Assembly: GCF_004331155.1 (NCBI RefSeq)
Contig: NZ_SJNZ01000017.1
Location: 1 to 64,000 of the forward strand
DNA from: Acinetobacter terrestris
GTDB taxonomy: Bacteria > Pseudomonadota > Gammaproteobacteria > Pseudomonadales > Moraxellaceae
Direction: 5' to 3'
DNA: 64,000 nt
The position numbers and the translations under genes were made by a program. The notes under the pieces were generated by a model, which was given only the letters and a program-made list of their open reading frames with translations, did no database searches and was not told the DNA's origin. Of the stretch, positions 59,767 through 63,006 are shown piece by piece (position 1 is the stretch's first letter; each line of letters starts with the position of its first letter).

Positions 59767-59791
59767 CAACCGATCAGAACGGACATCGTTG
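59767..59791 (-). terminator. Candidate attenuator terminator in the nasA leader
   Basis: On the minus strand CAACGAT pairs with ATCGGTTG (one bulged G) around a ten-base loop and is followed by TTATTGCTT. Its 5' arm uses the loop and 3' side of the second ANTAR-type hairpin, so the two folds exclude each other. The T tract is weak. Confidence 0.4.
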
Positions 59792-59825
59792 GCCGTCTTA
59801 TAATTGAATGAGCTGTCTTTAGCTC
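59779..59825 (-). promoter_or_regulatory. Two-hairpin ANTAR-target motif in the nasA leader
   Basis: First hairpin (59810-59825): stem GAGCT/AGCTC with hexaloop AAAGAC. Second hairpin (59779-59796): stem ACGGCC/GTCCGT (one C-U mismatch) with hexaloop AACGAT. Both loops have A at position 1 and G at position 4, the rule for ANTAR protein targets. They are 13 bases apart. The first begins at about +2 of the predicted transcript. Confidence 0.65.
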
Positions 59826-59836
59826 AAATTAAATAT

Positions 59837-59853
59837 TGCAATGATTGTGCCAA
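59837..59853 (-). promoter_or_regulatory. Sigma-54-type promoter of nasA
   Basis: The minus strand reads TTGGCACAATCATTGCA, a full match to TTGGCAC-N5-TTGCA. Twelve bases after the GC puts the start at 59826, one base before the first leader hairpin. Confidence 0.8.
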
Positions 59854-60067
59854 AGTTTTTCAAAATTATATTTAGTGATTGAAAATCAAAAATAAAATAT
59901 TTATCTATCGCTTAGAGATAAAGATCAAAGTTAATCTCTTGTGTAGTTGTGGCGCCATCAGCCTTAAACTGGTGCAACTGTGCAGTTCATTTTTGATGGG
60001 TTTAAATTTTCTAAAGCGCTTAAGCGATTGTGCAAATTGTGTGATCGCCAACTTTCAGCTTTACAAG

Positions 60068-61798
60068 TTAAAAGTATCGTAACAATAAATGCCCCATGAT
60101 CAGCAGAATTAAGATCAGGGATAAATTTCGCCAAAACAGCACCGGATTTCTTTCAATCAAGGCGATTTTTTGCTGCTTGAGAAAGCGCGGATTGGGATGT
60201 TTTAAGTCATAAATAAATTCTGACAAAGCCGAATACCGCTGCGCTGCTTCAGAATGTAAAGCTTTTTGCACTGCGGCCTCAAACCAGGCAGGAATATCCG
60301 CTCTATATTGGCTCATAGGATAATAGTGCAATTTTTTTAACTGCTTTTTTGTGGTGCATTTGGCGACTTCAGTCCCATAAGGTAGTTGTTGAGTCAGCAG
60401 ATAATAGGTCAGCACCGCCAGTGAATACTGATCAGAACGGCTACCTGCCGGTTTAGCTAAAAAATATTCAGGTGCCATATAGGCGAGCGTACCTAAAGCT
60501 AAATCTGCATGCTCAGGCTGAAATTCAGCAATCCCTTTGACCGATGTTGAACCGAAATCAATGAGTTTAATTTGAGATGCAGCATTGATCATAATATTTT
60601 CAGGGCGGATATCTTGATGCAGCATTTCCAACCGATGAAATGCGTTCAGCGCTTTGGCAACCTGTTCAACAATATCTATTATTTTAGACACTTCGACTGT
60701 CTGGTTTTGCTGTTTTAACCATGCCTTAAGGCTCTGGCCTTCTATGTATTCAAAGGTTTGATAGAGATAATGCTTAGCACTGCGTTGCGGATAGGCACGC
60801 ATGACATAATCATTCTGAATACGTTTTGCCACCCACTCTTCCAAATAAAACTGCTCCATGGCATTTGGCTGTTGCTGTAAATCGGTTGCCGGGACTTTAA
60901 TGACCAAGGGCTGCTGCGAGTGTGCATCCTGAGCCAAATATAAACAGCTGCGATGATTCTGATGCAGTACCTTTTTTACCACATAATCTTCAAATAGATC
61001 GCCGGACTGCAAAGCCGGTGCCATCGGCAAATCCTTATATTGCGGATCGAAATATTCACCTGCTTGTGACGGCAATGCATCGACCTGTAAAATCTGCAGG
61101 GTTAAATTATCGGTACTGCCATTCGCCAGCGCCTTCTGTAACAGGCATTTCGCTACCTGGTTCAAGTCTTGATCTGCGGATAAAGCAGCAAGAATCTCGC
61201 TTTGATTGAGGTATTCATATACCCCATCGGTCATCAGCAGAAAAATATCTTCGGGATAAAGCTGAAGTTTCAAATAATCCACTTCTACTTTTTGCCCGAC
61301 ACCCAAGGCACGACTTAAATAACTTTCTTGAGAAGACAGCGAGATACGATGATCAGTGGTTAAATGCTCTATTTTCTGTCCCTGAATGCGATAAATGCGC
61401 GCATCACCTATATGGAATAGATGCGCTTGATCATGTTTGAGCACCAATGCACTCAAGGTGCATACATAACCGCGGTCTTTATCGAAGCGGCCCTGACTCT
61501 GCTGGGTTTGTGCAAATAGCCAGGAATTAGTGGCAGTAATGACCCGCTCGGCAGAGGTTTTTACACTCCATGATTCAGGTGTAGAAAAATAATCGTTAAT
61601 AAAACTGGATACTGCCGTTTCACTGGCGATATGACTGACATTACTGCTGCTGATGCCATCGGCAATGGCACAGACTATGCCCTTTTGTTGTAATAGGTAA
61701 TTTTCTGGCAATCCTGCGCCATGAAAATCCTGATTCATGCTTTTTTGACCTGAGTCGGTGCATTGTCCAATACGGACAGCCAGTTGTTTTTGCATCAT
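60068..61798 (-). CDS. Bifunctional PP2C phosphatase-serine/threonine kinase, membrane anchored
   Basis: This 576-residue fusion has a PP2C-type phosphatase domain at 1-250 (CAIADGISSS with a metal-binding Asp, HIGDARIYRI, LMTDGVYEY, STDNLTLQIL). A protein kinase domain follows at about 270-540 (VIKVP lysine, HQDIRPENIMI catalytic loop with Gln in place of the HRD Arg, LIDFGS, APEYF). No glycine-rich loop is recognisable, which is odd. A transmembrane helix (about 553-572) ends the chain, leaving the domains cytosolic. It lies 58 bases after the nitrite-channel gene and before nasA. A signalling role in nitrate assimilation is inferred from position only. Confidence 0.88.
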   Translation of the reverse strand: MMQKQLAVRIGQCTDSGQKSMNQDFHGAGLPENYLLQQKGIVCAIADGISSSNVSHIASETAVSSFINDYFSTPESWSVKTSAERVITATNSWLFAQTQQSQGRFDKDRGYVCTLSALVLKHDQAHLFHIGDARIYRIQGQKIEHLTTDHRISLSSQESYLSRALGVGQKVEVDYLKLQLYPEDIFLLMTDGVYEYLNQSEILAALSADQDLNQVAKCLLQKALANGSTDNLTLQILQVDALPSQAGEYFDPQYKDLPMAPALQSGDLFEDYVVKKVLHQNHRSCLYLAQDAHSQQPLVIKVPATDLQQQPNAMEQFYLEEWVAKRIQNDYVMRAYPQRSAKHYLYQTFEYIEGQSLKAWLKQQNQTVEVSKIIDIVEQVAKALNAFHRLEMLHQDIRPENIMINAASQIKLIDFGSTSVKGIAEFQPEHADLALGTLAYMAPEYFLAKPAGSRSDQYSLAVLTYYLLTQQLPYGTEVAKCTTKKQLKKLHYYPMSQYRADIPAWFEAAVQKALHSEAAQRYSALSEFIYDLKHPNPRFLKQQKIALIERNPVLFWRNLSLILILLIMGHLLLRYF

Positions 61799-61856: not shown

Positions 61857-62675
61857 TTAAAAAACTTTTTTCGGTGCAGTACGCACATGAGTGGTATACA
61901 AGGCCAGTCCGGTTAATGATAGACCACCGACCAAATTACCTAACGCCACAGGTAATTCATTCCAAATGAAATAATCCATGATTGAAAAGTCGCCGCCCAT
62001 CATCATGGCAAACGGGAACAGGAACATATTGACCACAGAATGTTCAAAACCCATGGCAAAAAACAGCATGACCGGCATCCACATCGCAATAAATTTACCA
62101 CTGACGGTGGTCGACATCATGGCCCCAATTACCCCCAGCGACACCATCCAGTTACATAGCATGCCTCGGATAAAAATCGTCATCCAACCGGCAAAACCGT
62201 ATTCGGCATAGCCTAAAGTCCGTGCTTCCCCGATATGCGCAATGGCCAAACCGACATTATTTGGCTCGGCAGCAAAGCCGTAGGTATAAACAATCGCCAT
62301 GAGAAAAGCCACCACCAGACAGCCTGAAAAGTTACCCAGAAAAACCAAGCCCCAGTTTTTCAAAATACGGTTCCAGGTCACGCCTGGACGTTTATCTAGC
62401 CATGCCAAAGGAGTGAGCACAAAAACTCCGGTCAATAAGTCATATCCCAGCAAATACAACATACAAAAACCCACTGGGAACAGTAGCGCACCAATCAGTG
62501 GCACGCCAGTTTGCACGGCGATGGTGACTGCAAATACTGCGGCAAGTGCCAAAATCGCACCGGCCATAAATGAGCGAATTAAAACATCGCGGGTGGCCAT
62601 ATGAAGTTTTGCTTCACCAGCATCTACCACTTTTTGTGCAAACTCTGCAGGAGCGAGATAAGACATCGCATTCAC
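61857..62675 (-). CDS. Formate/nitrite transporter (FNT) family channel
   Basis: The 272-residue protein has the six-helix FNT fold. LIRSFMAGAILALAAVFAV, LGYDLLTGVFVLTPLAWLDKR, LGNFSGCLVVAF, RGMLCNWMVSLGVIGAM and FEHSVVNMFLFPFAMM are FNT motifs. It probably conducts nitrite or nitrate-related anions, supported by its place in the nitrate cluster. The formate alternative cannot be excluded. It starts the operon with the phosphatase-kinase, behind a sigma-54-type promoter and an attenuator. Confidence 0.88.
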   Translation of the reverse strand: MNAMSYLAPAEFAQKVVDAGEAKLHMATRDVLIRSFMAGAILALAAVFAVTIAVQTGVPLIGALLFPVGFCMLYLLGYDLLTGVFVLTPLAWLDKRPGVTWNRILKNWGLVFLGNFSGCLVVAFLMAIVYTYGFAAEPNNVGLAIAHIGEARTLGYAEYGFAGWMTIFIRGMLCNWMVSLGVIGAMMSTTVSGKFIAMWMPVMLFFAMGFEHSVVNMFLFPFAMMMGGDFSIMDYFIWNELPVALGNLVGGLSLTGLALYTTHVRTAPKKVF

Positions 62676-62719: not shown

Positions 62720-62756
62720 AAAAAAGCGCCCAAGACCTATTTTAAGTCTTAGGCGC
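62720..62756 (-). terminator. Strong attenuator terminator upstream of the FNT gene
   Basis: On the minus strand GCGCCTAAGAC pairs with GTCTTGGGCGC (11 pairs, one G:U) around a nine-base loop, then six T. It ends about 45 bases before the FNT start, on the same strand, where no upstream gene needs termination. Its 5' arm overlaps the second leader hairpin. Confidence 0.85.
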
Positions 62757-62815
62757 CATTGCCCGAAATGAAATACAGCTATAATCATGTTAAATGAAAT
62801 GGCGTCGTTGCCATT
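62751..62815 (-). promoter_or_regulatory. Two-hairpin ANTAR-target motif in the FNT leader
   Basis: First hairpin (62798-62815): perfect stem AATGGC/GCCATT with hexaloop AACGAC. Second hairpin (62751-62764): stem GGGC/GCCT with hexaloop AATGGC. Both loops have A1 and G4. The linker is 33 bases, longer than in the nasA leader. Forming the second hairpin would occupy the 5' arm of the terminator. Confidence 0.65.
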
Positions 62816-62834
62816 CTTTAATGATTAACTAAAA

Positions 62835-62851
62835 AGCAAAGATCATACCAA
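62835..62851 (-). promoter_or_regulatory. Sigma-54-type promoter of the FNT-kinase operon
   Basis: The minus strand reads TTGGTATGATCTTTGCT: TGG and TTGC with the correct eight-base gap, but TAT where CAC is consensus. The predicted start is 62824, about nine bases before the first leader hairpin. Confidence 0.6.
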
Positions 62852-62927: not shown

Positions 62928-62944
62928 TTGGCACAAATAATGCA
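62928..62944 (+). promoter_or_regulatory. Sigma-54-type promoter of cynS
   Basis: TTGGCACAAATAATGCA matches TTGGCAC-N5-TTGCA at all but one position, with GG and GC ten bases apart. The predicted start near 62954 gives a leader of about 53 bases without leader hairpins. Confidence 0.65.
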
Positions 62945-63006
62945 ACTAACAATACCCATATAAGTACTTCTATATTATTTCAAATCATGCTTTAAGGAGA
63001 AAATAA

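Follow-up and report, generated by a model that had tools for sequence, protein, structure and literature searches.

The locus examined here raises the question of what controls a gene for a formate/nitrite-family (FNT) channel and the adjoining gene for a fused PP2C phosphatase and Ser/Thr kinase in Acinetobacter terrestris. Both lie in the 64,000-nucleotide stretch of DNA analysed as a whole (the window), in which a sequence-only reading had proposed an ANTAR-type leader ahead of the channel gene. The answer favoured by the analyses below, to which a probability of about 0.86 is given, is a NasT-type ANTAR antiterminator leader, at which nitrate or nitrite would allow transcription to pass on into the genes for the FNT channel and the PP2C-kinase. 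The ligand, the RNA binding, the read-through, the use of sigma-54 and NtrC and the co-transcription of the kinase gene with the FNT gene are assigned by analogy with characterised relatives, and the best reading of the locus is that of a known mechanism with a new target, the FNT and PP2C-kinase operon.

The channel and kinase genes

The two genes follow one another on the same strand:

61857-62666, minus strand: FNT channel gene, 269 aa (Pfam PF01226, E 5e-67)
60068-61798, minus strand: gene for a PP2C phosphatase-Ser/Thr kinase fusion, 576 aa (Pfam PF13672 and PF00069)

Homologues place the start of the FNT gene at the ATG at 62666 and not at the GTG at 62675. The solved relatives of the channel are LCIA, FocA and NirC, and its scores stay below the curated cut-offs for FNT, FocA and NirC; the kinase has its solved relatives among the PknB-like kinases. 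The residues which we take to be catalytic in the kinase domain (K301, HQD 394-396 and DFG 414-416) and in the PP2C domain (D24, D47-G48, D191-G192 and D230-N231) are invariant in all 13 homologues compared. A hydrophobic stretch recognised by eye makes it probable that the fusion protein is anchored in the membrane by a C-terminal helix. No described role was found in the literature for a kinase paired with an FNT channel.

The gap between the two genes measures 47-148 nt across the operons of the genus, and the kinase gene is presumably transcribed together with the FNT gene. In six of the 34 species (L003, L014, L022, L024, L025 and L026) the gap contains a terminator-like hairpin which could lower the kinase relative to the channel; the source genome is without it.

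Architecture of the leader

Upstream of the FNT gene the following elements are found:

62836-62851, minus strand: putative sigma-54-type promoter, TTGGTATGATCTTTGC, of the form GG-N10-GC (sequence)
62798-62815, minus strand: hairpin P1, AATGGC-AACGAC-GCCATT, with an A1/G4 hexaloop (sequence and conservation)
62765-62797, minus strand: linker joining P1 to P2 (23-34 nt in the 34 leaders)
62751-62764, minus strand: hairpin P2, GGGC-AATGGC-GCCT, with an A1/G4 hexaloop (sequence and conservation)
62720-62757, minus strand: intrinsic terminator of 15 pairs and six T (fold; hairpin 62757-62725, T run 62725-62720)

The GG-N10-GC site with its TTGC block is presumed to be a sigma-54 promoter from its fit to the consensus, and from its position transcription would start at about 62824, so placed that P1 begins some 9 nt past the expected start. 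Both the promoter and the spacing to the first hairpin had been foreseen by the sequence-only reading and are borne out (62851-62836 and 62815-62798), as is a short hairpin with loop AATGGC ahead of the terminator (62764-62751). The terminator had been described as 11 pairs plus six T; the six T stand, whereas the stem amounts to 15 pairs when folded with G-U pairs counted. The 3' part of P2 (62764-62751) is shared with the 5' arm of the terminator hairpin (62757-62725), and the two structures are mutually exclusive.

Folding of the leader region gave a z score of -5.28, with none of 200 shuffled sequences equally stable. When the 260 nt ahead of the FNT gene were shuffled 3000 times, the complete arrangement never appeared, and at 11 other loci of the genus it was present in 11 of 11 real sequences and in none of 3300 shuffles of the corresponding region. 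These tests demanded two A1/G4 hexaloops, each on a stem of four or more base pairs of which two or more were G-C, the second overlapping a T-tailed terminator, and thus covered the hairpins and the terminator, the promoter being left out of the criterion. Scans of the window and the locus with Rfam gave no family at the gathering score, and the sub-threshold matches were of unrelated types. A third helix, pairing the linker with the stretch that follows the terminator, was dropped as a candidate since 15 of 17 leaders gave p values of at least 0.078; the leaders that came nearest were L003 (p 0.008 and 0.044) and L022 (0.066 and 0.044).

In the window the terminator has a folding energy of -23.4 kcal/mol and P2 one of -4.4 kcal/mol, and among 12 leaders folded the values are -19.4 to -27.2 and -4.3 to -4.4 kcal/mol, respectively. 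As the terminator is so much more stable than P2, read-through probably depends on a bound protein. In the terminated fold P1 is still paired, with its loop open.

A sigma-54-like site, TTGGCACAAATAATGCAA, is also seen at 62928-62945 on the plus strand, before the divergent cyanate lyase gene, which suggests that the region between the FNT gene and cynS may be under shared nitrogen control.

Conservation within Acinetobacter

Of 175 genomes of the genus, 37 carry an FNT homologue (E <= 1e-60). The DNA upstream of all 37 genes was compared: 34 have the leader and an adjoining kinase gene, and three (G047, G017 and G076) are without a kinase neighbour and also without a leader. The sequence-only reading had staked itself on the hairpins being conserved among those Acinetobacter relatives that keep the operon, and so they are, the two hexaloops, the overlapping terminator and the GG-N10-GC site all being retained in 34 of 34 intact FNT-kinase operons, each with exactly two A1/G4 hexaloop hairpins in the region searched. 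The overlap of P2 and the terminator was recorded for 33 of the 34 in one scan and for the last (L029) in a separate fold, the scan having printed another hairpin. The promoter site, as TGG-N10-GC, ends 12-19 nt upstream of P1 in every leader, and the TTGC block is likewise present in all 34 at a near-constant distance.

Neither loop varies at A1, A2 or G4 in any of the 34 leaders, A1 and G4 having been search criteria and A2 not; positions 3, 5 and 6 do vary. The distance from loop to loop is 39-50 nt. Covariation was analysed in an alignment of 26 of the 34 rows, identical P1-P2 stretches having been removed beforehand (of the eight rows dropped, four have differences in other parts of the leader). 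P1 and the terminator covary: both sides have changed in 4 of 6 pairs of P1 and in 8 of 15 pairs of the terminator, with 92.2% and 90.6% of the cells paired, respectively. P2, with 100% of its cells paired, is almost invariant, and its covariation is therefore uninformative either way. None of 500 shuffles reached the overall covariation score; when P1 and P2 were scored by themselves, two of the five measures, namely pairs changed on both sides and further pair types, were not clearly above the shuffles, 81 and 70 of 500 being as high. Related sequences inflate such shuffle tests, so a control in which the structures were slid along the alignment is safer, and here the slid structures were 25-50% paired against 95% and 91% for the real ones.

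The kinase gene occurs in 36 of the 175 genomes, that is, in the 34 leader genomes and in G132 and G136. In G132 (L122) what appears by eye to be a 3' remnant of the FNT gene precedes an intact kinase gene, and in G136 (L123) the kinase match is in two pieces and contains stops. Neither of these genomes with damaged operons has an ANTAR or a nasA match, a pattern consistent with a joint loss of the operon, the ANTAR protein and nasA.

The regulator pair and its probable signal

The source genome encodes one ANTAR protein, which has a receiver domain (PF00072 and PF03861), and an NMT1-type protein resembling NasS (PF13379) follows directly after it (C33). Since no NCBIfam model names either member of the pair NasT or NasS above its cut-off, their NasT/NasS-like identity is drawn from domain make-up and adjacency. 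An ANTAR protein is present in 144 of the 175 genomes of the genus and, matched by eye, in 34 of 34 leader genomes. The presence of this pair in the genome and the conservation of the leader in 34 of 34 operons together lend support to the ANTAR-type reading of the leader.

These results bear on whether the hexaloops matter at all. A constitutive or ligand-independent attenuator, holding FNT and kinase expression at a fixed low level, would fit a terminator about 19 kcal/mol stabler than P2, which should win almost always unless a protein is bound. If the loops were incidental to such an attenuator, however, there would be no reason to expect A1, A2 and G4 to be retained in 34 of 34 leaders while other positions vary, or an ANTAR protein to accompany them in 34 of 34 genomes, and this explanation is very unlikely.

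Three genomes (G075, G078 and G103) retain the leader and the ANTAR protein, yet gave no nasA-type match at E <= 1e-60 when searched with a query made of the first 300 residues. The nasT-nasS-like pair of G078 has nirB as a neighbour, and G103 appears, judging by its open reading frames, to be arranged alike. Gene content in these three genomes fits a role for nitrite, as signal and as substrate, that is as plausible as one for nitrate.

Comparison with characterised systems and proposed mechanism

In the available parts of the papers cited here, NasT of Paracoccus binds leader RNA and the NasS-NasT pair senses nitrate and nitrite, which in characterised systems cause NasS to release NasT (PMC3795266). 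The hairpins of Paracoccus nasA are located 137 and 91 bp ahead of the gene, at a spacing of 46 bp; mutation of HI severely lowered expression on nitrate and mutation of HII left nitrate-grown expression nearly unchanged (PMC5424462). ANTAR proteins are described there as requiring A1 and G4 of the hexaloop, with the second hairpin excluding the terminator (PMC3369931), and in the leaders bound by EutV the linker is 5-12 nt long, 20 nt extra at this place having abolished antitermination (PMC3369931, PMC8934654).

Set against the NasS-NasT systems (nasA of P. denitrificans and the NasT targets of Bradyrhizobium), as portrayed in the same parts, the Acinetobacter leaders are alike in having an ANTAR regulator with a NasS-like partner (PMC3795266, PMC6759348), in loops 39-50 nt apart where HI and HII of Paracoccus are 46 bp apart (PMC5424462), and in having nitrogen-oxyanion genes as targets (PMC3795266, PMC6759348, PMC5424462). 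They differ in that the target is an FNT and PP2C-kinase operon and not a reductase operon, and their sigma-54-type promoter is known from sequence alone. With the EutV system (eut of E. faecalis) and the NasR system (nasF of Klebsiella), again as far as the available text goes, they share two A1/G4 hexaloop hairpins of which the second overlaps a terminator (PMC3369931, PMC7496416). Unlike in these systems the regulator is NasT-like, and the linker of 23-34 nt contrasts with the 5-12 nt of the eut leaders, so that the short-linker feature is absent; the general ANTAR motif has been described with a variable linker. The conserved longer linker bears on the loop spacing that is allowed, a 20-nt extension having disabled the EutV system. 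Among the titles and abstract openings surveyed, none dealt with a leader before an FNT-kinase operon or with ANTAR leaders in Acinetobacter, although the hit tables of PMC3369931 may hold such cases; the available parts of PMC7261876, PMC8014003 and PMC8264665 make no mention of such a leader.

Under antitermination by NasT, RNA polymerase with sigma-54 would start at about 62824, probably with NtrC under nitrogen limitation. As long as nitrate and nitrite are absent, NasS would hold NasT and the terminator would capture the P2 region, giving a terminated transcript of about 105 nt with its 3' end near 62720. Upon arrival of nitrate or nitrite, NasS would release NasT, which would bind the A1/G4 loops of P1 and then of P2 and thereby block the terminator, allowing transcription to continue into the FNT gene and then into the PP2C-kinase gene.

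The terminated RNA could also be an end in itself, the leader serving mainly as the source of a small RNA of about 105 nt whose free P1 loop titrates NasT, in the manner of EutX/Rli55 for EutV. The open loop of the paired P1 in the terminated fold speaks for this, as does the sequestration of EutV by EutX/rli55 RNA reported in the available part of PMC8934654. Against it, P2 is tied up in the terminator hairpin, and in 34 operons of the genus the element is found immediately before the FNT start, as for control in cis, which leaves the small RNA a slim chance. That the structure is an ordinary terminator or processed structure of the cynS region or of a missed upstream gene, with no bearing on FNT regulation, can be practically dismissed, since cynS, although it is the upstream neighbour, lies divergently on the plus strand, the list of open reading frames has none of at least 90 aa on the minus strand from the leader to the end of the window, which upholds the earlier remark that there is no same-strand gene upstream to terminate, and the arrangement is kept in 34 operons of the genus.

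If the NasT antitermination reading holds, the set of genes with predicted nitrate/nitrite antitermination grows by a Ser/Thr kinase-phosphatase and the adjoining channel, and 34 natural leader variants are available for testing. The role of a eukaryote-like kinase beside a channel of the nitrite family also becomes a testable question.

Leaders before other nitrogen-assimilation genes

The sequence-only reading had placed a further leader of the same kind about 3 kb away. It is present (P1 at 59826-59809), with a terminator that is weak. This ANTAR-like leader of nasA covers 59779-59854 on the minus strand, has its own sigma-54-type site and comprises:

59809-59826, minus strand: P1 of the nasA leader, TGAGCT-AAAGAC-AGCTCA (sequence; two compensatory pair changes in G073, by eye)
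59779-59796, minus strand: P2-like hairpin with loop AACGAT and an imperfect stem (by eye; not flagged by the script)

While nasA is present in 140 genomes of the genus, this leader was seen only in the source genome and in G073 among 30 nasA upstream regions examined, and the scan of the 28 others did not show it. In some other Acinetobacter nasA is preceded by lone hexaloop hairpins; these lack the two-loop arrangement and were not used.

A covariance model (R1) built only from FNT leaders scored the FNT leader of its own genome at 50.6 bits; the next match there (24.2 bits, on C49) is inside an ABC permease gene and is not a leader. Across the genus, 48 of 175 genomes match at E <= 0.01. 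Matches above 35 bits comprise the 34 FNT leaders and one sequence immediately before nasA in G022, built in the same way and likewise with a GG-N10-GC site. In thirteen genomes all matches score below 35 bits, and the two of these that were fetched (G013 and G114) failed the leader criterion.

The model is close to genus-specific, as only 14 of 390 genomes of the order match at E <= 0.005. Seven of the 15 matches (L254-L260) were inspected: L254 and L257 are leaders, and the other five are not (L255 and L260 fall within open reading frames; in L256, L258 and L259 inspection by eye revealed no leader). The leader of L254 precedes a gene for an NMT1-family ABC-binding protein, probably nrtA, and in G444 the matching leader precedes nirB, followed by nirD, FNT and kinase genes. 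With leaders found before nasA, an nrtA-like gene and nirB, the best cross-gene matches of a model trained on FNT leaders are thus nitrate-assimilation genes. The nirB leader of Stutzerimonas/Pseudomonas resembles that of Acinetobacter in its two A1/G4 hexaloops and overlapping terminator; there, however, one leader stands some 4 kb ahead of the kinase gene, whereas the Acinetobacter FNT-kinase operon has a leader of its own.

Distribution beyond the genus

A match to the PP2C-kinase, probably with paralogues included, was obtained in 196 of 390 genomes of the order. At 18 of 20 order loci fetched, the FNT gene is directly upstream of the kinase gene on the same strand, and of these 18 operons four have the leader directly before FNT (L107, L110, L111 and L113) and two have it about 4 kb upstream (L104 and L115). 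Partial leaders were recognised by eye in L102, L108, L118 and L121.

A wider sample consisted of the best 80 of 580 relatives, from which four loci with less than 800 nt upstream were left out, giving 76. Of these 76 loci (from L174-L253, the best 80 of 580), mostly alpha-, beta- and gammaproteobacterial by label, with two metagenome-assembled genomes (MAGs; L204 and L238) bearing non-proteobacterial or campylobacterial labels, 73 have the FNT gene upstream of the kinase gene and in the same orientation. The leader criterion picked out 22 of the 76 sense regions in this sample of the best 80 of 580, against one antisense and no shuffled region. These 22 include all 10 loci of Acinetobacter, several of them from the same genomes as the genus set, nine of Stutzerimonas/Pseudomonas with the leader about 4 kb upstream, two directly upstream of FNT (Methylomonas and a gammaproteobacterial MAG) and one about 5.4 kb upstream. 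As 54 of the 76 loci from the best 80 of 580 fail the criterion, the kinase gene is not always under such a leader; in this Acinetobacter, analogy with the characterised leaders suggests that nitrate or nitrite may switch the kinase on.

The pairing of channel and kinase is the deeper surprise, more than the leader itself. A tentative view, which we hold to be somewhat less probable than its opposite, is that channel and fusion protein belong to a single conserved module, where the kinase-phosphatase, anchored in the membrane, would reversibly phosphorylate the FNT channel or another protein of nitrate assimilation, NasT antitermination being one of several proteobacterial ways to deploy the module only when nitrate or nitrite is present. 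If true, nitrite uptake would gain a layer of phosphorylation, of which no description was found in the literature.

In two of the order loci the first loop position is G and not A, namely in both hexaloops of L113 and in the P2-like hairpin of L118, and it is possible that these G1 loops have changed together with the local ANTAR protein.
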